This document shows positions 7,144 to 18,784 of a stretch of 41,477 bases of DNA, piece after piece. Numbering within the stretch: position 1 is the first letter of the stretch; every line of letters starts with the position of its first letter. The translations under genes and the position numbers were made by a program. Origin of the DNA: a virus; the IMG/VR virus record IMGVR_UViG_3300028595_000025, positions 1 through 41,477 of that record. The stretch is one strand, 5' to 3'. A model generated the notes under the pieces. It was not told the origin of the DNA. It saw only the letters and a program-made list of their open reading frames with translations, and ran no database searches.

Positions 7144-8967
7144 TTACTTACCATGTAAAAGCCCCTTGTCAACTAAATACTCAGCGGTCTTGTGTAGCTC
7201 GTCTATGCTGATACCGCTTACCTCTGACAGATATAATAAATCTGAATCATCATTTAACAGCCAGCGGGCCGCGTCTAAATTACAATCTATCCCCCGCTTT
7301 GAAAAACACGGCTCACCGTTCATCTTGACAGGCCGATAGTACTTGTTCATTTCCCAAGTCTGGCATATTTCGTACAGCTTGTCAATCGTCCGCTGTATCG
7401 CCCGGAAGGATATGAAATCTTTGTTATCAAGCGATGTATGATATTCCGGGTACTCCCCCGGAGGGCAGGTCATTATAGTCCCCATGGGTTTATACCAATG
7501 CCGCTCATCCGCTCCCCTGTGCGGGTAAAAATCCCTTACCTCTGATTCTAATACATATTCTGCTACATCATTAAACATAGACCAGAGATTAGACCGCTTA
7601 TAGACAAAGGGCTTGTCAACACCGCAACACGTTACCTCATACCCGCCCTTCACTTTAGTCATGTCCTGGGTTGCCATGTAAGTGATACTCCCTATAGTTT
7701 CGGGTACAAATACAATCCTGTATGAATAGCGGCGCGGTGCGCTGCGTAATAGACGTGCTAAGAATATCAGCGCAAGCGGCCCGCTCAATTCGTTATTGGC
7801 CATTGACGGATGACAGGTATAGGTTGAAAACATTATTTCATCGTCTAATTCACCGGGGATCAGAATATGCGACATCGTTAACGATCCCTTCTTATACCCG
7901 GCGTCAATAAACACCTGATAGGTGCCGTCGGTCATCTTTTGCTTTTGGTAATCAGATATACAGAAACCCCAATCCTTCTCGTAATATGCTGTTTTATAGG
8001 GAATAACTGTAGGCTGTTCGGGTATAGAGTGCAGGTGCTTTTGTAGTATTTCTGCCGGTTCATACACACAGTGCGGGAGCGATCCGCTCACTATGTGCAG
8101 ATTGTTTTCTGAGGCGTCGATTATAGTATGCCCGGCCCTGTCTTTAATCCACGCCTCTTTGAAATACCATTCATCCGGTACAGTCCAGTCAAAAACCGCT
8201 GTCCCCGATGGTATCTCTATCGTTTCAAGCGGTGTTATTTCTGACAACAAGCGGTGTGTTTCCCGCACCCCATCTCCGGTAATCGAGCGCATAATAGGAA
8301 ATAGTTTATCAAATAACGTTTCAATCTCAGTGTATTTGTCTTTGTGCAGATTGCGGCCGTTGTTAAATAAAATGTCTTTCTTGATTATATGCGCCGCACT
8401 ATCTAAGCATATAATCGTGTGTTGTATTCCGTGTATTTCTTTAAGCCCGGCTGCACCCTCGTCCTCTAATAATTGGCCTACCGTGTTTAGGTCACTCTCA
8501 ACCCCATCCTCTAATCGGCGCACATAAAGGCTGGTGTCCTGAAATGTTTTTTCATATCTATACTTAGCCTTATAGACCGATTCCACAAAATGGGCATAGG
8601 TAAATGAGTGCTGATAATCAACATCGATCAATAACATGAAATCTATGGGGGCAAAGCAGTTGTATTGATAATCCGGCCTTTGGTTAACAAACCAGTCTTT
8701 TTGCTTCCCCCAAACCGCAAAGGAATAGATATAGTGCTGCGTCCGCATAAAGTCTGGCCGTTTTAAAGCGGCGGCCGACAGGCTCCCGGTCTGTGACGGC
8801 GTTTTATGAATATCAAACTCCGCACCGTCACAATAATCCATATTGTAGGTGGGAAATAATAGCGTACCATCCGGCCCGACTATTTCTTGGTACATATCAA
8901 TCAAACTATCTAAATCATGCCCAGCATACAGGAGCTTGGATACGTCGGAGGCGACAAGTAAAATCAT
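7144..8967 (-). CDS. Two-domain protein: AAC(3)-like acyltransferase + DUF4910-like aminopeptidase domain
   Basis: A 607-residue protein, last gene of the glycan operon. Residues about 1-160 match the AAC(3)/antibiotic N-acetyltransferase fold: GPDGTLLFPTYN, TPSQTGSLSAAALKRPD, SFAVWGK and YAHFVESVYKAKYRYEKTF. The usual His-Ser-Ser near the start reads ASD. Residues about 215-520 resemble the DUF4910/M28-like domain of polysaccharide-cluster proteins: SITGDGVRETHRLLSEI, YKTAYYEKDWGFCI, STYTCHPSMANNELSGPLA, PHRGADERHW and EYHTSLDN, with His, Glu and Asp suited to a zinc site. A small winged-helix-like tail follows. It probably adds or removes an acyl or aminoacyl group on the nonulosonic sugar. 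The start overlaps the ligase gene. Confidence 0.7.
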   Translation of the reverse strand: MILLVASDVSKLLYAGHDLDSLIDMYQEIVGPDGTLLFPTYNMDYCDGAEFDIHKTPSQTGSLSAAALKRPDFMRTQHYIYSFAVWGKQKDWFVNQRPDYQYNCFAPIDFMLLIDVDYQHSFTYAHFVESVYKAKYRYEKTFQDTSLYVRRLEDGVESDLNTVGQLLEDEGAAGLKEIHGIQHTIICLDSAAHIIKKDILFNNGRNLHKDKYTEIETLFDKLFPIMRSITGDGVRETHRLLSEITPLETIEIPSGTAVFDWTVPDEWYFKEAWIKDRAGHTIIDASENNLHIVSGSLPHCVYEPAEILQKHLHSIPEQPTVIPYKTAYYEKDWGFCISDYQKQKMTDGTYQVFIDAGYKKGSLTMSHILIPGELDDEIMFSTYTCHPSMANNELSGPLALIFLARLLRSAPRRYSYRIVFVPETIGSITYMATQDMTKVKGGYEVTCCGVDKPFVYKRSNLWSMFNDVAEYVLESEVRDFYPHRGADERHWYKPMGTIMTCPPGEYPEYHTSLDNKDFISFRAIQRTIDKLYEICQTWEMNKYYRPVKMNGEPCFSKRGIDCNLDAARWLLNDDSDLLYLSEVSGISIDELHKTAEYLVDKGLLHGK

Positions 8968-10088
8968 CTTAACCTTTTAAACCTTTCGGTATGCAACCTC
9001 TCCACATATTCTATACGCATCGGTGTATGGAATTTGCCTATTTTATGACGGACATACGTTTTGATACGTTTTTCGCTTACATTTCCCACCACCTTTGCAA
9101 TCACTACCTGACCAAGTATAGGATTTGGCTCACCCTTCACCGTCACATCTTTAATGCCTGGAATTTCCAAGATGCAACTTTCTACATCAATCGGCGATAC
9201 CTTATACCCGCCAACATTTATGATGTCGGAATCACGTCCGCGGAAACGAATATAGCCGTTCTTTTCATCCACTAAGTCCCCTGTATCATACCATCCGTCT
9301 TTAAACGGAGAGGGGGCGTTTAGGTATCCTACCATAGATGTTTTACTCTTTATCCACAACCGTCCGTTAACTATTCGGTGTTCGTCCCCTATCTTTAACC
9401 AAAGCCCCTCGCCTGATTTAGTCCGCATTATCCCGAGTTCTGATAATCCATAGGTTTGCTTTAGTTTTACATCTGGCAGTGCTTTACTTAACGCCTTTAG
9501 CGTGGCCGGCGGCATCGGTTCGGTTCCGTAGGTGATTAGCTTTAGACTGGAAAGGTCATGTTCTTTATACGCACCGCTCAAAAGCATAAGATTAAGGAAT
9601 GACGGTGTAGAGGGGAGCAGTTCGGCCTTGTTCTCAGCAATAGCCCTACACACCCCGCCGGGGCTGCGGTCTGAAATATAGATAGGCGTTCCGTTTCTAA
9701 GGGTGTAAAATAGTGTATTCCAGCCGCCGATATGATCGAACAACAGAAACATAATGGTGCGGAAAGATTTACCAGGATAATCAAACTTAGATATGAACCT
9801 TGTATAGTCGTGCAGCGCCGCCTTGGGCGGTCCGGTTGTACCAGACGAGAAAAGCACAAACCCGCCTTTCACTTCTTTGTATAGCGGGTTCACAGCTTTC
9901 ATGCCTGTAAACGTAAACTTGTTTTCTGCTATATCATATAAAGATTCAATCTGTGCCGCTTCAACGCGGGGCTTTATGTCTTTCACCTGATTGGCGATCG
10001 GCACCACCACGTCCCCAGCTTCCAAGAAATCCAAAAGCACGTTTACGCTCTTTTGTGTGAAGTCTGATTGAATACCTATAACACTCAT
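8964..10088 (-). CDS. AMP-forming acyl ligase (ANL superfamily)
   Basis: A 374-residue adenylating enzyme, shorter than the 500 residues usual for the family because the N-terminal subdomain is reduced. Core motifs are in order: FSSGTTGPPKAA (P-loop-like, about 79-90), ITYGTEPM, TYGLSELG (about 214), YDTGDLV (about 270), FRGRDSDIINVGGYKVSP (about 283-300) and a C-terminal TERFKRLR that supplies the lysine-bearing tail. It would activate a carboxylate as acyl-AMP and load it onto the acyl carrier protein encoded two genes upstream. Start overlaps the SDR gene stop by four bases (ATGA). Confidence 0.85.
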   Translation of the reverse strand: MSVIGIQSDFTQKSVNVLLDFLEAGDVVVPIANQVKDIKPRVEAAQIESLYDIAENKFTFTGMKAVNPLYKEVKGGFVLFSSGTTGPPKAALHDYTRFISKFDYPGKSFRTIMFLLFDHIGGWNTLFYTLRNGTPIYISDRSPGGVCRAIAENKAELLPSTPSFLNLMLLSGAYKEHDLSSLKLITYGTEPMPPATLKALSKALPDVKLKQTYGLSELGIMRTKSGEGLWLKIGDEHRIVNGRLWIKSKTSMVGYLNAPSPFKDGWYDTGDLVDEKNGYIRFRGRDSDIINVGGYKVSPIDVESCILEIPGIKDVTVKGEPNPILGQVVIAKVVGNVSEKRIKTYVRHKIGKFHTPMRIEYVERLHTERFKRLR

Positions 10089-10729
10089 ACTCCCCCCAAA
10101 TATATAACCTGTCCAGTCACAAAATAGCTTTCAGGTCTTATCAGCCAATCAACTATATTGATTATATCATCCACAAGGCCGGGCCGCTTAATAGCCTGCA
10201 TCCCAATAACTTTTTCCAGTTTGTCCTCGGGGACGTTTTTGATTAAATCTGTATATATCGGATTGGGGCCGATACAGTTTACTTTTATCCCCCATGGGCT
10301 AAGCTCTTTAGCGATAATTTTGGTAAAGGTTTCCACAGCCGCCTTGGATGCGGCATAAACCGCCTCACCCTCGAGCGCCAACGGTACGGCCACCGATGAA
10401 AAGTTTATTATCCTCGGACAACTGGACCCCTTTAATAGCCTGGCCGCTTGTTGACAGACGTTGAAGGTTCCCAAAAAATTGGTCGCCATAATATCACGGG
10501 CTTTGTCCGGGGACATAAGCAGAAAATGATTCATAGACGCTATACCGGCGCAGTTGATGACAACATCTAAAGAGTGTACGCTTTCAAGGAAAAACTCAAC
10601 ACTATCGGGTTGTGTAACGTTACATGCGGTTGACCTGCTGGCCCGGAATACATCATGTCCGATAGTTTCATAATGCGTAGCCAACCTGGCCCCGATCCCC
10701 CGGCTTGCGCCTGTGATTAGAAAACGCAT
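10085..10729 (-). CDS. Short-chain dehydrogenase/reductase (FabG-like)
   Basis: A 214-residue classical SDR: TGASRGIGAR cofactor motif (residues 6-15), NCAG (about 59), serine in NFSSVA, catalytic YAASK (about 129-133) and the IKVNCIGPN segment. The Arg after the glycine motif favours NADPH. Next to an acyl carrier protein and a ligase, the likely substrate is a 3-ketoacyl-ACP or a sugar-linked ketone. It overlaps the ACP gene by 13 bases. Confidence 0.85.
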   Translation of the reverse strand: MRFLITGASRGIGARLATHYETIGHDVFRASRSTACNVTQPDSVEFFLESVHSLDVVINCAGIASMNHFLLMSPDKARDIMATNFLGTFNVCQQAARLLKGSSCPRIINFSSVAVPLALEGEAVYAASKAAVETFTKIIAKELSPWGIKVNCIGPNPIYTDLIKNVPEDKLEKVIGMQAIKRPGLVDDIINIVDWLIRPESYFVTGQVIYLGGV

Positions 10730-10992
10730 AGTTCCACCAAAAAAGTGGCCAGCGTTCCTACTGTTCTAAATGGACTATCGGTGCGTGAATACGTCTTGTC
10801 CGTAACGATAGGCATTTGCTTGCCGGTCTTTTCCTCTATTTTCTGTTCAACCAACAGGATAAAGCTCACAAAATTAATGCTTTCGATATTAGAGAAATCA
10901 TAAAGGATGGTATCCTCTGTGATGTCTGACCAAATTTCACGCCCGACTATTTCGTTTGTTTCAAGCATAGCCTCTTTGATTAATTCAATCAC
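10717..10992 (-). CDS. Acyl carrier protein-like
   Basis: A 91-residue acidic helical protein. The phosphopantetheine site of ACPs (DSL) appears as IESINFVSFI, with Ser about residue 39, followed by the helix LLVEQKIEEKTG. The C-terminal part is longer than in fatty-acid ACPs. It would carry the acyl group made by the ligase and reductase encoded just downstream; the phosphopantetheinyl transferase must come from the host. The start overlaps the previous stop. Confidence 0.8.
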   Translation of the reverse strand: MIELIKEAMLETNEIVGREIWSDITEDTILYDFSNIESINFVSFILLVEQKIEEKTGKQMPIVTDKTYSRTDSPFRTVGTLATFLVELCVF

Positions 10993-11207
10993 TTCCGGCC
11001 CGCCTTTAAATCTATCAACGTTTCTACGTAAGAAAGGCCTGTGATTGGCTTCCAGAATTTATTACCGTTTAGATTCATTAGCTTGACCCAATTGCCAGAG
11101 GGAGATACTTCCAGTATCTTATATTCTGTTACTTCTTCCTCACGGTAAGCATATCTGCCGGACGTTTTTAACAATACTCGTTTCCCAACAAGATCAGTGA
11201 TTTCCAT
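10989..11207 (-). CDS. Small unknown protein of the glycan operon
   Basis: A 72-residue protein starting MEITDLVGKRVLLKTSGRYA. I choose ATG 11207 because GGGAGG lies nine bases upstream; a longer frame to 11297 would run 90 bases into the CMP-sugar synthetase gene. Predicted all-beta, SH3-like (VGKRVLLK, TEYKILEVSPSGNWVKL, KFWKPI). Its unbroken position in the operon suggests an accessory to the neighbouring enzymes. No known family is assigned. Confidence 0.65.
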   Translation of the reverse strand: MEITDLVGKRVLLKTSGRYAYREEEVTEYKILEVSPSGNWVKLMNLNGNKFWKPITGLSYVETLIDLKAGRK

Positions 11208-11910
11208 TAGTTCTGCCCTCCCATGTCTTTTTGAAATGGTCAATAAACCTGTTTTCCGCATCCGTCCAATCTTCCGGGGTGTCGATTGGGAACACACTCT
11301 GCCAGTCTACAATAAACGGCGCCGCCTTTGGTGGGAATAAATTACCGTTCATCATAAGCCGCGGAATTGACATCCACCAGAACATTTCCGCGTGATGATA
11401 GGTATCAAACCATAGATTTGACGTTTTATCTTTTTGCCCTGGGAATACCATTCTCAATCTGCCGTCCTCGATTATCATGGCCCTCTGGAAATGCCACGGA
11501 CTTCTGACAACGGGAATACAAACATCCGCTGCCTCTGCGATCATAGTATCGAGGGCAAGCCGTATATAATCACCTGAAATCATCGGAGCGGTAGCGTAAA
11601 TCATACAACAGTTTTCAAAGTGGTGGTTTTGCTTCGATAGTTCAGCTAAGGTGAAGCGGACAACCTCATACATCGGCACATCGTCGTCCGCTAATTCTTT
11701 GGGCCGCATAAAGGGGATGTTTGCGCCGGCGGCCTTAGCCACATCGGCTATTTCCTGGTCCTCGGTTGACACAACTATTTCGTCAAAAACCCCGGAACCC
11801 TTAGCCGCCTGGATAGAGTAATTAATTATCGGCTGACCTAAAAACTCTTTAATGTTCTTATGCGGTATTCTTTGGCTACCGCCCCGGGCCGGAATGATTG
11901 CTATGTTCAT
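11194..11910 (-). CDS. pseF: CMP-nonulosonate synthetase (PseF-like)
   Basis: Activates a nine-carbon sugar acid with CTP to CMP-sugar. At 238 residues it begins MNIAIIPARGGSQRIPHKNI, the cytidylyltransferase P-loop; then FLGQPIINYSIQAA, STEDQEIADVAKAAGA, YATAPMISGD and WFDTYHHAEMFWW. The pattern of PARGGSxRIPxKNI plus the late His-Asp-Ala/Glu-x-FYW block is closest to pseudaminic acid PseF rather than to sialic acid NeuA. I choose ATG 11910, which overlaps the previous stop (ATGA) and has AGGA upstream; a start at 11982 would add 24 unrelated residues. Substrate exactness (Pse versus a relative) is inferred. Confidence 0.85.
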   Translation of the reverse strand: MNIAIIPARGGSQRIPHKNIKEFLGQPIINYSIQAAKGSGVFDEIVVSTEDQEIADVAKAAGANIPFMRPKELADDDVPMYEVVRFTLAELSKQNHHFENCCMIYATAPMISGDYIRLALDTMIAEAADVCIPVVRSPWHFQRAMIIEDGRLRMVFPGQKDKTSNLWFDTYHHAEMFWWMSIPRLMMNGNLFPPKAAPFIVDWQSVFPIDTPEDWTDAENRFIDHFKKTWEGRTNGNH

Positions 11911-12437
11911 AATTTCCTCACTATATCCATGTCCGGCACATCCGTTTGAGGTTTGGTAAACACAAACAACAGGCTTGACCAATATCTGCGCTTGTAATAC
12001 TTTGTCCCCGGTAGCACGGTTGTGTGTCCATTATAGCGGACCGCCATTTTATACCAAAAATCCACCGCCTTGCTGCTGTAGTAACATTCGCCATGTACTA
12101 TATCGAGATTCAAATAATCAAAAGCGCGGGTCAAGATACTGGCGACGGCGGCGGCACCTAAACCTTCACCCCGTCGGCGTGGTGCAATCAATACGCTGAT
12201 TTCACCGCGGCGGTTCTCCCATTCAATATTCTCTATACCGCCGTAACCGACAAGGTTACTCCCCCGCCAAAAGCCCCAATACCTTGTTGACCCGCGCCTA
12301 TCACAAATAACCTCACGGTAAAAATCTTGCTGCATTTCCTCAGTCAGCTCATAGGGGGTGCGCAACGTTTCCATTATATCGTTGCGCCATCCCCTGACCG
12401 TTTCCATGTCTTGATACGATAGCGGTTTAAAAATCAT
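11907..12437 (-). CDS. GNAT-family N-acetyltransferase
   Basis: A 176-residue protein beginning MIFKPLSYQDMETVRGWRND, the usual start of RimJ/PseH-type GNATs. Acetyl-CoA site: APRRRGEGLGAAAVASIL (R-x-x-G-x-G/A pattern, about residues 85-102). ATG 12437 overlaps the NeuB-like stop (ATGA) with GGAAGGG upstream. Placed between a nonulosonate synthase and a CMP-sugar synthetase, it probably acetylates an amino sugar intermediate as PseH does, but a later position on the sugar is possible. Confidence 0.8.
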   Translation of the reverse strand: MIFKPLSYQDMETVRGWRNDIMETLRTPYELTEEMQQDFYREVICDRRGSTRYWGFWRGSNLVGYGGIENIEWENRRGEISVLIAPRRRGEGLGAAAVASILTRAFDYLNLDIVHGECYYSSKAVDFWYKMAVRYNGHTTVLPGTKYYKRRYWSSLLFVFTKPQTDVPDMDIVRKL

Positions 12438-13084
12438 AATATCCCTTCCAATTGTTCGGGCGTCATGGCCCATGGTCCATTATCCAGCCCCTTTGAGTCT
12501 GGTAGTTTAAAATGTTTCTCGTATCGGGTGGGCTTGTATTTGTGGAAAAGCTCAAAGTTATCCGTATGGTCTGATATTCCTACAGATAAAAACCCACCAA
12601 ATAGGGTTGCATACTTAACCCAATTAGCCGGGTACTCGGGCACACAACACAAGAAGTCTATATTGTCCGAAATCATAGACAACCTGAAATCCCAAGTGGT
12701 GAACGGAGAGGGGACCGACACAAGCGCCAAGACACTATTGGGTATCTTCGGCAACAATAGTTCATAGATCGATTGGCGGCAAGCTATCTTGACAAAAGGC
12801 ACACTATAGTTATCGATCAGAAACTTTAGTGACGGTATATCAAATACACTGGCCGTTGTTTCATAGCCCATTTTTGCCGCCAACCTGTAGGCATAATCAA
12901 AAACGTCCCTATCAAGCGGGGTTACAGTTTTGCCCCCCGCTTTAGGGACGGTATTAAACAATTGCCATTTAATAACTATCCGGCGCTTGCCGGAATTTAC
13001 GTTGTCCATTTCCTTTATCATCTTTAGCGCCTCGAGGCGCGAATTCTGACACGTTTCACCGGAACCGAAATCAAGTATTACCAT
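12434..13084 (-). CDS. Compact NeuB/PseI-like nonulosonic acid synthase
   Basis: Condenses phosphoenolpyruvate with an amino sugar to a nine-carbon acid. At 216 residues it is much shorter than the usual 335-350. It keeps TIM-barrel landmarks: IKWQLFN (for the VKFQxF motif), ETTASVFDIPSLKFL, FVKIACRQS, VGISDHT and YEKHFKLPDSKG (the metal or substrate histidines), ending with DNGPWAMTPEQLEGIL. The C-terminal SAF/antifreeze-like domain is absent and the N-terminus is reduced (DFGSGETCQNSRLEA). It is either a minimal phage version or partly degenerate. It overlaps the regulator gene by 14 bases. Confidence 0.8.
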   Translation of the reverse strand: MVILDFGSGETCQNSRLEALKMIKEMDNVNSGKRRIVIKWQLFNTVPKAGGKTVTPLDRDVFDYAYRLAAKMGYETTASVFDIPSLKFLIDNYSVPFVKIACRQSIYELLLPKIPNSVLALVSVPSPFTTWDFRLSMISDNIDFLCCVPEYPANWVKYATLFGGFLSVGISDHTDNFELFHKYKPTRYEKHFKLPDSKGLDNGPWAMTPEQLEGIL

Positions 13085-16287: not shown

Positions 16288-16808
16288 CTCCGCCCCCTTC
16301 CGCGGCTCAGCTTTCTGCGGTCAACCCATACAAGTTTACCCTCGCCCTCAAGGTGACGGGCCCGCTTTTTCACGGTTGTTTTGCTCGTACCTATTATATC
16401 AGCTATATCAGCCCATTGCAGAGCTGGGTTTTGCGCCGCCTTTATCAACAGCGGGTCTAAAGCGGGCCAATCGAAATATCGCCCACTTAGGTATCGGTTT
16501 GCTACGGCTTCCCTCATCGTGTCACGCCGCGTCCAAACAAGCCGTCCCTCGGTTTCAAGCTGTCTGCACCTGCGCTGCAATAATAGCATTTCGGTTTCAA
16601 GTACAGACTCTATCTCACACCATCCCATATTACAATCATTAAAGCAATCTATCAAAAGAGTGTCAAGCCTTTTATCGTATGTTTTTGATAGATGGCCTGG
16701 CTTAGTATCCGGCGGCAAGACCCGGTCCTTGGGACGCTGGCCCCACATCAGTTCGTATAGATTGGTAATGACTAAATGATCCGGCGGGGGGGCGGTTTTG
16801 TAACTCAT
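16284..16808 (-). CDS. DNA-binding protein with two repeated HTH domains
   Basis: A 174-residue protein. Two copies of the same helical unit are visible: MGWCEIESVLETEMLLLQRR then LETEGRLVW (about residues 60-92), and LQWADIADIIGTSKTTVKKR then LEGEGKLVW (about 129-161). Each reads as an HTH with a recognition helix followed by the same exit strand. A basic tail RGRGRR ends it. It is likely an origin- or operator-binding protein that acts with the adjacent replication protein. ATGA overlaps both neighbours. Confidence 0.65.
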   Translation of the reverse strand: MSYKTAPPPDHLVITNLYELMWGQRPKDRVLPPDTKPGHLSKTYDKRLDTLLIDCFNDCNMGWCEIESVLETEMLLLQRRCRQLETEGRLVWTRRDTMREAVANRYLSGRYFDWPALDPLLIKAAQNPALQWADIADIIGTSKTTVKKRARHLEGEGKLVWVDRRKLSRGRGRR

Positions 16809-17311
16809 TCCTTTTCCTCCTTACATCTTAGACAATAACCCGCTGTGTGCGTGTTATGATATCCACAACTTGTGCACAACCACCCCTCTTTCGGGAAAGG
16901 GTAGTCTAACTGTTTATAATTAAATTTAAGATTAAGATTAAGATACGATAGACTATCATAGTCTATAAAAGTATACACCCACTCGGGTGCAGCCTGTAGT
17001 GCTATCTCAATTCCGCGTTTTACGGTGTGTATTTTTGTCTTTTGGTGCTTGATGAAATTCTTGATAGCAACCCATCCATCCTGATACTTGATGCGCCCAT
17101 CGGCTTCGAAGCGGTCCAGAATACGGCGTACCATGTCTTTTTCAAAACCAGTATCAAAGGATATTCTCCGGGGTGTGATTTCATAGACCCCGGCTATGTT
17201 GGTCAGTGGGTTGGTCAGTAGGTACAGAAACAATAGCTTTTCGGACGGGTCTAAACTTATGATATAGGTGTCATCCCAAAACTTAGTATTGACGTACCGT
17301 TCTTTTGCCAT
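16805..17311 (-). CDS. DnaD-like replication initiation protein with zinc finger
   Basis: A 168-residue protein starting MAKERYVNTKFWDDTYIISL, the usual N-terminus of phage replisome-organiser/DnaD-N winged helix proteins (then SEKLLFLYLLTNPLTNIAGV, MVRRILDRFEADGRIKYQD, FIKHQ). The C-terminal DnaD/DnaB-binding domain is absent; instead a CTSCGYHNTHTAGYCLRC zinc finger ends the protein. It probably binds the origin and recruits host helicase. The start codon follows a promoter -10 by eight bases with no Shine-Dalgarno, so the mRNA appears leaderless. Confidence 0.7.
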   Translation of the reverse strand: MAKERYVNTKFWDDTYIISLDPSEKLLFLYLLTNPLTNIAGVYEITPRRISFDTGFEKDMVRRILDRFEADGRIKYQDGWVAIKNFIKHQKTKIHTVKRGIEIALQAAPEWVYTFIDYDSLSYLNLNLKFNYKQLDYPFPKEGWLCTSCGYHNTHTAGYCLRCKEEKE

Positions 17312-17350: not shown

Positions 17351-17374
17351 GAAAAACCCCCGCCCGTCCGGGGG
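17351..17374 (-). terminator. Rho-independent terminator of early operon 1
   Basis: Six-bp GC stem CCCCCG/CGGGGG with a 6-nt loop (17374-17357), followed by TTTTTC on the minus strand. It would end a transcript covering the HNH gene and the tmRNA-like RNA. Confidence 0.85.
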
Positions 17375-17519
17375 CCATGCGCGGTAAAGTGTTCAAGGCA
17401 AGAAACATTTTCGTAACCTTTCCTTGTCCAGTCCTAAAGCTACTACAAATGTGATCTCTTGCGCTGTGACGGGCCAGCGCTTTATCCGGCTTACCTCGTC
17501 TGAGGAATTACCGGCTTAC
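17375..17519 (-). other. Non-coding segment with two hairpins
   Basis: No reading frame with protein character. On the minus strand two hairpins follow the tmRNA-like RNA: CCTC-AGAC-GAGG inside a CCGG/CCGG closing stem (about 17515-17488) and GCGCTG-N8-CAGCGC (about 17481-17462). They may belong to the 3' trailer of the tmRNA-like precursor. A short ATG frame near 17413 has a Shine-Dalgarno-like AAGGAAAGG but reads through the terminator and is not called. Confidence 0.4.
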
Positions 17520-17594
17520 TGGACGCGGCGGGACTTGAACCCGCGTCCCGACACAGCTATTACGCTTTTGTGTCGGTCGAACCTTCGCGCGCCC
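17520..17594 (-). ncRNA. tmRNA-like alanine-type tRNA domain, 75 nt
   Basis: Minus-strand RNA from 17594 to 17520. Seven-bp acceptor stem GGGCGCG/CGCGTCC with a G3-U wobble and discriminator A, the alanyl-tRNA synthetase identity set. T arm GCGGG-TTCAAGT-CCCGC is perfect. There is no D stem; instead GAAGGTTCGAC resembles the tmRNA D-loop consensus GGATTCGAC. In place of an anticodon arm, CCGACAC/GTGTCGG (7 bp) closes a 15-nt loop containing AGC-GTAATA-GCT. The 3' part GGACGCGGGTTCAA resembles the bacterial ssrA end as I recall it. There is no room for a tag frame or pseudoknots; the loop holds GCG TAA TAG. It begins four bases after the HNH stop. CCA is not encoded. Confidence 0.75.
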
Positions 17595-17598
17595 TTCA

Positions 17599-17985
17599 TT
17601 ACAAAACATCCCTACAGGCAACGTACTTCTTTAGCACCGTTAATTCATGTCGCCTGTACTCAGAATCGGTTATACCCATTTCTTGTAGGTAGTCTTTATA
17701 CAAGACGCCCTCTAATCTTTCTAAGTACTCCATATCCACAAGTTTGTCAAGGTATCGGCTAAACTGTAGCTTCTGGTTGTGCGCCATATGGTGATGCTCT
17801 TTACATAGCAGTATCCCGTTGTGTATATCCCACCGCGGCACCCGCCATCTGCGCTTGATGATATGATGACACTCGACAAATGGATTGGAGCGCCCGCAGA
17901 TAGCGCACCTATCAGACCACTTGCGCCGGACGGCCTTGCGCCACCAATGACCTAAATATGAATCACTTACTGCTTTTTTGCTCAT
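17599..17985 (-). CDS. HNH endonuclease
   Basis: A 128-residue protein with a clear HNH core: CAICG (about residues 28-32), ECHHIIKRR (about 39-47), WDIHNGILLCKEHHHMAH (about 53-70). The paired CxxC/CxxH positions bind structural zinc and the histidines form the catalytic metal site. The N-terminal part is basic (WWRKAVRRKWSDR). Free-standing HNH proteins in replication regions may nick DNA for recombination, or home. It overlaps the alanine-repeat gene by 23 bases and lies next to the tmRNA-like RNA. Confidence 0.85.
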   Translation of the reverse strand: MSKKAVSDSYLGHWWRKAVRRKWSDRCAICGRSNPFVECHHIIKRRWRVPRWDIHNGILLCKEHHHMAHNQKLQFSRYLDKLVDMEYLERLEGVLYKDYLQEMGITDSEYRRHELTVLKKYVACRDVL

Positions 17986-18784
17986 TTAATGCCCCGTTAA
18001 TCTTTCTTGTAAGGTATCTATTTTGATAGTTTTTCTCGGCGGTATGGGTGGCATAGGCGGAGGCATCGGCGGCATGGGCGGCATCGGCGGCGGCATGGGT
18101 GGCATAGGCGGAGGAATAGGCGGCATGGGCGGCATCGGCGGCGGCATAGGCGGCGGCATGGGTGGCATAGGCGGAGGCATCGGCGGCATGGGTGGCATAG
18201 GCGGCGGCATAGGTGGCATAGGCGGCATAGGCGGCATAGGCGGAGGAATAGGCGGCATGGGCGGCATCGGCGGCGGCATAGGCGGCGGCATGGGTGGCAT
18301 AGGCGGCGGCATAGGCGGCATCGGCGGCATAGGCGGAGGAATAGGCGGCATGGGCGGCATCGGCGGCGGTTTTCACATCGTCAATCGTTGCATCACCCCT
18401 TAACCATCTACGCGCCGTATTTATCGCATCCCAGCTCCGCTTATCTTCCCACCCCGTTTTTTTCATGGCCCGTTCAGCGAAATGACAAACTGACCATAGA
18501 ATGATCTTCTTTGCGTCAATCAAAGCCAAGCACTTACGATTCCGCCCAACCAACTTATCACCTTGTTCTACTACATCGCCCCATATCTCAACCTTTTCAA
18601 GCAGAAATTGCCCGGAATATTGTAGCGCGTCAATCAATCGCCGTGAACCGTGCAGCCCATTTTTACAGATGGTTATATCACCCTCAACAGAGTAGGTTTT
18701 ACCTACTTCAACCTTGCGGCCATCACCGTGAGGCAATTTCCCATCTTCCGGCAAGAAATGCCACGCTTTAATTCTCTTTTCCAT
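17963..18784 (-). CDS. DUF7666-like protein with long Ala-Tyr repeat tail
   Basis: A 273-residue protein. The N-terminal domain (MEKRIKAWHFLPEDGKLPHG, GKTYSVEGDITICKNGLHGS, VEIWGDVVEQGDKLVGRNRK) matches a widespread phage domain I recall as DUF7666. Residues about 138-250 are low-complexity repeats of AAYAA, AADAAHAAYSSAYA and AYATHAA type, alanine at about two of three positions, probably helical; a short basic tail follows. ATG 18784 has AGGGGAG upstream. Function unknown. Repeat number is likely to vary by slippage. Confidence 0.75.
   Translation of the reverse strand: MEKRIKAWHFLPEDGKLPHGDGRKVEVGKTYSVEGDITICKNGLHGSRRLIDALQYSGQFLLEKVEIWGDVVEQGDKLVGRNRKCLALIDAKKIILWSVCHFAERAMKKTGWEDKRSWDAINTARRWLRGDATIDDVKTAADAAHAAYSSAYAADAAYAAAYATHAAAYAAADAAHAAYSSAYAAYAAYATYAAAYATHAADASAYATHAAAYAAADAAHAAYSSAYATHAAADAAHAADASAYATHTAEKNYQNRYLTRKINGALNEQKSSK
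18030..18370. repeat. Degenerate GGC-rich tandem repeat inside CDS
   Basis: About 340 bases built from GGCGGCATAGGC-like units, mostly GGCGGCAT(A/G/C)GGC variants in 6-, 9- and 15-nt periods. The only biological frame is the minus-strand Ala/Tyr one; the Gly-Ile-Met and Pro-Met frames are shadows. Longer blocks (about 70 nt) recur, for example the AADAAHAAYSSAYA coding block three times, showing recent duplication. Confidence 0.85.

Follow-up and report, generated by a model that had tools for sequence, protein, structure and literature searches.

A message-less tmRNA encoded in a virus genome belongs to a diverse viral RNA family and is a candidate competitor of host tmRNA

Introduction

Ribosome rescue by tmRNA is near-universal in bacteria. 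The canonical molecule (Rfam family RF00023) is about 350 nt long and carries a tag frame, a resume codon and pseudoknots in addition to its tRNA-like domain (TLD). Full-length or permuted tmRNAs are also encoded by phages, including Bxz1-like mycobacteriophages, Streptomyces phages and Melnitz; they possess an alanine-type TLD and retain the tag-coding message. Reduced forms have been described in organelles, where the plastid tmRNAs of the Mallomonadaceae (~65 bp) and mitochondrial tmRNA are CDS-less (PMC11915505). Among phages, the ssrA of Mycobacterium phage DS6A (tmID 11587) has been classified as 'TLD only' (PMC4131195; PMC11915505), a brief mention which was the only record of such a phage RNA encountered in the open-licence literature. 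With respect to function, a remark in PMC4131195, which cites Mao et al. 2009, states that a TLD-like molecule, whether or not it can be charged, is a strong inhibitor of tmRNA, perhaps via titration of SmpB; the remark is repeated in PMC11915505.

Here we report the analysis of a 75-nt RNA encoded in IMG/VR record IMGVR_UViG_3300028595_000025, of which the whole stretch of 41,477 nt that was analysed is referred to as the window. Like the DS6A ssrA, to which it is likened by description, the window RNA is phage-borne and little more than a TLD. A first-pass annotation of this DNA had stated that no such phage RNA was known to it; DS6A provides a precedent, and the window RNA is not the first of its kind. 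The DS6A RNA was reported as one sequence, whereas the window RNA belongs to a broad family; no description of such a family, its size classes or its invariant G3.U was found in the open-licence literature. The plastid CDS-less tmRNAs, also likened by description, are of about the same size and share the absence of a tag frame, but they are organellar, as is the mitochondrial form, and the window RNA is phage-borne. Compared with full-length and permuted phage tmRNAs, it has the alanine-type TLD without the message.

Results

The window is a virus record, in which terminase, major head and tape measure genes were identified. At 17594-17520, on the minus strand, it contains a complete tmRNA TLD of 75 nt from which the message domain is absent, as delimited with RF00023 and with R1, a covariance model built from other viruses only, the window RNA being excluded. 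The 5' end lies at 17594 and the discriminator A at 17520. Read from 5' to 3', the RNA consists of the acceptor 5' strand GGGCGCG (17588-17594, G3 at 17592, from the sequence), CGAAGG, the motif UUCGAC (17576-17581), which sequence and RF00023 alignment identify as the D-loop analogue of tmRNA, the helix 2 5' strand CGACACA (17569-17575), the loop AAAGCGUAAUAGC (17556-17568), the helix 2 3' strand UGUGUCG (17549-17555), the linker GGAC between helix 2 and the T arm (17545-17548, the same in most relatives), the T arm GCGGG-UUCAAGU-CCCGC (17528-17544, a perfect 5-bp stem in RF00023 and R1), the acceptor 3' strand CGCGUCC (17521-17527, U70 at 17523, from sequence and R1) and A. Both strands of helix 2 were placed by the R1 alignment and are supported by covariation, all seven homologous pairs covarying. 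The gene has no encoded CCA, and GTA comes next.

The acceptor stem is of 7 bp, and G3.U70 and A73 are alanine identity elements. The D stem is missing, with GGUUCGAC in its place. These features, and the perfect T arm, had all been read from the letters in the first-pass annotation and are present. The same annotation had described helix 2 as 7 bp closed by a 15-nt loop; the helix was recovered, its length being 7-8 bp and that of its loop 13-15 nt, depending on how it is read. Canonical tmRNA shares with the window RNA the G3.U acceptor, A73, UUCGAC, helix 2, GGAC and the T arm, and differs by its length of about 350 nt, tag frame, resume codon and pseudoknots, none of which are found in the ~75-nt window RNA. 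The TLD parts kept in such RNAs, hereafter minis, correspond to those of tmRNA that alanyl-tRNA synthetase (AlaRS), EF-Tu and SmpB contact; what has been lost is the message.

Comparison with the whole tmRNA model supported this description, with a match well outside what chance would produce. RF00023 aligned with the window RNA over model positions 1-374 with 46.9 bits, a score falling just below the gathering cut-off of 47 bits (E 1.2e-15), and 308 positions of the message region were replaced by 13 nt. The mRNA-like domain of canonical tmRNA (resume codon, tag frame and stop) is lacking, and there is no sequence for the pseudoknots PK1-PK4. With R1, the window RNA scored 61 bits (E 4.2e-14), and its folding was more stable than that of shuffled sequences (z -3.55 and -3.9). 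A tmRNA match over the whole model from which the message alone is missing supports the reading as a message-less tmRNA, and the earlier proposal of a tmRNA stripped of about 300 nt, with an acceptor of the alanine type, was borne out. ARAGORN, the other program suggested at that stage, made no call at the window RNA.

Some phages carry permuted tmRNAs, and the window RNA might be one half of such a two-piece molecule, or else an unusual tRNA. It has neither a D stem nor an anticodon arm with a 7-nt loop, its loop is of 13 nt, and its two halves are collinear, whereas in the permuted form (RF04321) the 3' half stands ahead of the 5' half. In addition, true permuted tmRNAs scored at most 37 bits with R1, as against 42-92 bits for minis defined by pattern. 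These data make both origins very improbable. Weak blastn matches in the phages Pseudomonas PA_L9, Stenotrophomonas QDWS359, Bordetella PHB04 and Xanthomonas XacN1, considered as possible minis, turned out to be full permuted tmRNAs, and a match in Phass-1 was to a full-size tmRNA.

The genes flanking the window RNA are all on the minus strand. An HNH endonuclease gene (17599-17985, minus strand; PF13391, E 5.4e-8; phrog_119, E 1e-8) precedes it, with 4 nt between the stop codon and the 5' end of the RNA. About 145 nt downstream, a terminator-like hairpin with a T tail (17355-17376, minus strand), weak by itself (1 found versus 1.9 expected in shuffles), precedes the next gene, a DnaD-like or replisome organiser gene (16805-17311, minus strand; phrog_6251, E 1.5e-21; phrog_1701, E 4.1e-21). 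No SmpB gene was found in the window. Elsewhere in the window, a GGC/ATA/ATG tandem repeat array (18036-18369; 132-bp unit, 2.1 copies, 92% match, with shorter periods nested) lies inside an ORF whose minus-strand product has an Ala/His/Tyr-rich repeat (AYATHAAAY...) following a DUF7666 domain. A gene group at 7144-13084, unusual in a 41-kb phage record, resembles sugar or surface-glycan metabolism and comprises NeuB-like, CMP-sugar cytidylyltransferase, AMP-binding ligase, short-chain reductase and DUF4910/Antibiotic_NAT fusion genes.

Relatives were sought by pattern scans over viral contigs, in which UUCGAC (or GGUUCGAC) and part of the T arm were fixed, with TCCA also fixed in one scan; a misspaced pattern, GGANNNGGTTC, one N short, contributes nothing to the family counts. 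The scans of public contigs yielded at least 136 distinct relatives of 59-119 nt with 7/7 acceptor pairs. Most are either 59-65 or 73-88 nt long; among the matches listed, only six, of 92-119 nt, came from a scan that allowed longer loops. Matches were sharply bimodal, with either 4-5 acceptor pairs, as for chance or tRNA, or 7/7. The window RNA is thus a member of a large and diverse viral RNA family. Sorted by common neighbour proteins, the loci of the at least 136 relatives fall into 66 groups, 52 of them single, a count which overstates the number of independent lineages as many loci are short. Counts of overlapping ORFs at mini loci were discarded owing to spurious GC-rich frames.

The acceptor stem was left free in one scan. 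Among the matches listed, genome contigs included, 99 of 105 distinct sequences had 7/7 acceptor pairs, and G1-C, G2-C, G3.U70 and A73 were present in all 99, none of which the pattern demanded; the genome-contig scan did require TCCA, yet it gave few of the 105 sequences. The constancy of these letters is evidence of selection for recognition by AlaRS. Conversely, UUCGAC and the T loop were imposed by the patterns and their conservation is partly built in; the RNAs of phages Riptide and BRock, found by similarity instead of by pattern, vary in UUCGAC or the T loop. The GGAC linker was seen in 94 of the 136 relatives, among the matches listed.

Covariation in the acceptor and helix 2, which the first-pass annotation had proposed to look for, was found in two alignments. 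In 23 gapless 79-mers, which were not fitted to the covariance model, 95.7% of cells were paired, compared with 68.7% after shuffling and 39-50% with slid partners. The corresponding values for 91 model-aligned sequences were 95.8%, 63.7% and 41-54%; G1-C, G2-C and G3.U were found in 91/91, and strong covariation was seen for acceptor pairs 4-7, for helix 2 and the T stem, and for a small inner hairpin. All seven pairs of helix 2 change on both sides in both alignments, and the helix is kept with different letters between loci that have neighbour proteins in common. In contrast, helix 2 loops, which replace the ~300-nt message and pseudoknot region, are wholly different among relatives; many contain an A-rich segment together with a small hairpin, and short ones are tetraloops such as GCGA, some GNRA-like. 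The letters GCG-TAA-TAG, which had been read in the window loop as a possible alanine codon followed by two stops, are there but are not common to relatives and do not form a conserved reading frame; as the loops vary freely, the mini-message reading does not hold. Taken together, the complete TLD, the invariant alanine elements, the covarying helices and the phage location indicate, at the level of sequence, a phage-encoded message-less tmRNA.

Constancy is greatest in the acceptor and T-arm elements that AlaRS and EF-Tu use, as would be expected if the RNA acted away from the ribosome, either as a decoy for AlaRS or EF-Tu or as an alanine donor to a non-ribosomal transferase. However, the tmRNA-specific GGUUCGAC region, the GGAC linker and helix 2 are kept as well, although such decoys need none of them, and no transferase neighbour is common to the loci. 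We regard an off-ribosome role as improbable.

Isolated phages carrying a mini include the Streptomyces phages LuckySocke, GiJojo, pSt2308, BRock, Alone3 and Riptide, in which the copies sit unannotated in tRNA arrays, and Pontimonas phage phiPsal1, whose copy is flanked by the prohead protease and major capsid genes. Two carriers also have a full-length tmRNA: Riptide (PV654398; mini at 83298-83374, tmRNA at 94862-95128 with annotated tag ANSKFAFALAA) and the IMG/VR record G008. One viral contig, L285, has two minis 1.3 kb apart, at 5-81 and 1317-1392. One mini was found in each of eight bacterial assemblies. In Cellulosimicrobium cellulans MP1, it belongs to a prophage (contig 17, L411-L413) with replication, portal, tape measure and endolysin genes, which adjoins host ssrA and smpB. 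In two bacterial family surveys, R1 matched the seed genomes only (1/301 and 1/150), so that the mini appears as a phage trait in those families. None was present in 15 records having a window replication gene in common, and the RNA is therefore dispensable in that group; records with the AAA/Sak4-like gene of the window had no mini, one weak match being a tRNA. A plasmid search returned T-arm fragments only.

Since ssrA is a common integration site of phages and islands, the RNA could in principle be a degenerate leftover or an att-site copy of the host gene, and the mini at 5-81 of contig L285 does look degraded in its T arm. A copy of this origin is contradicted by the compensatory changes in relatives with common neighbour genes, both halves being kept and covarying. 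No match to tyrosine integrase (PF00589) was found in the window. Moreover, the Cellulosimicrobium prophage mini immediately precedes a tRNA array and is separated from the intact host ssrA by 28 kb, and its acceptor and stems differ from those of the host gene. The attP copy of the ssrA 3' end raised in the first-pass annotation was rejected, and a remnant of ssrA is in our opinion highly unlikely.

Discussion

The best-supported reading of these sequence data is a competition with tmRNA: charged with alanine and bound by host SmpB, the RNA would compete with host tmRNA on stalled ribosomes, to which we assign a probability of about 0.5. RNase P would cut the RNA from the HNH operon transcript, a host enzyme would add CCA, host AlaRS would charge it, and host SmpB and EF-Tu would bind the charged form. 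The latter would then compete for SmpB and stalled ribosomes and, on entry, add one alanine to the nascent chain while offering no resume codon. Tagging and proteolysis by the host would be blocked or bypassed during infection. The trans-translation decoy or regulator of the first-pass annotation has thus become the leading, still putative, reading, ahead of the AlaRS or EF-Tu decoy that it had also put forward.

Several observations bear on this model. The inhibition of tmRNA by a TLD-like molecule, as remarked on in PMC4131195, supports a competitor. SmpB was not found in 40 carrier records, nor any RF-1/ArfB-family factor in 29 records, and the RNA would need host factors. No partner gene is common to the whole family, and gene contexts differ between loci, which fits an RNA acting on host machinery. 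On the other hand, the charging signals are invariant although the inhibition, as stated in that remark, needed no charging, which argues against passive titration of SmpB alone, and the full-length tmRNAs beside the minis of Riptide and G008 argue against simple inhibition. The invariant signals and this coexistence lead us to favour a charged RNA that would enter ribosomes and there act as a dead-end competitor or else donate alanine without a tag.

The second form, which we consider less probable, would be a working alternative to tmRNA: alanyl-RNA with SmpB might enter stalled ribosomes, add alanine, perhaps repeatedly, without a degradation tag, so sparing phage proteins from tagging, and possibly hand the ribosomes to other release factors. 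The invariance of G3.U70, A73, G1-C and G2-C suggests that charging matters, the two genomes with both RNAs suggest a separate job, and minis are often sited in phage tRNA arrays. Against this stands the lack of an RF-1/ArfB release factor in the 29 records, the means of freeing the ribosome not being evident. It seems doubtful that phages widely use such an alanyl-charged, SmpB-borne RNA as a tag-less branch of trans-translation bypassing host tagging, which would add alanine to nascent chains and be distinct from tmRNA and from simple decoys. With either a dead-end competitor or a tag-less donor, the occurrence of the same kind of RNA in well over 100 other viral sequences suggests that it probably serves many phages for interfering with, or redirecting, host ribosome rescue.

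The family is diverse and appears to be under selection for both alanine charging signals and tmRNA-specific structure. Its carriers include phages of culturable hosts (Streptomyces, Pontimonas and a Cellulosimicrobium lysogen), which makes an RNA-based block or rewiring of trans-translation by phages directly testable. The minis also expose an annotation gap. They are mostly unannotated, and ARAGORN misses nearly all mini loci scanned, its sole tmRNA call, at L062, having a different and implausible 5' end. The GiJojo copy is overlaid by a protein gene, gp44 (L394:999-1241), a hypothetical protein which is probably a false call. The permuted two-piece tmRNAs of the Bordetella PHB04, Stenotrophomonas QDWS359, Pseudomonas PA_L9 and Xanthomonas XacN1 phages (L390, L367, L368 and L392) are likewise unannotated in the stretches viewed, L367 having a protein gene called at that position.
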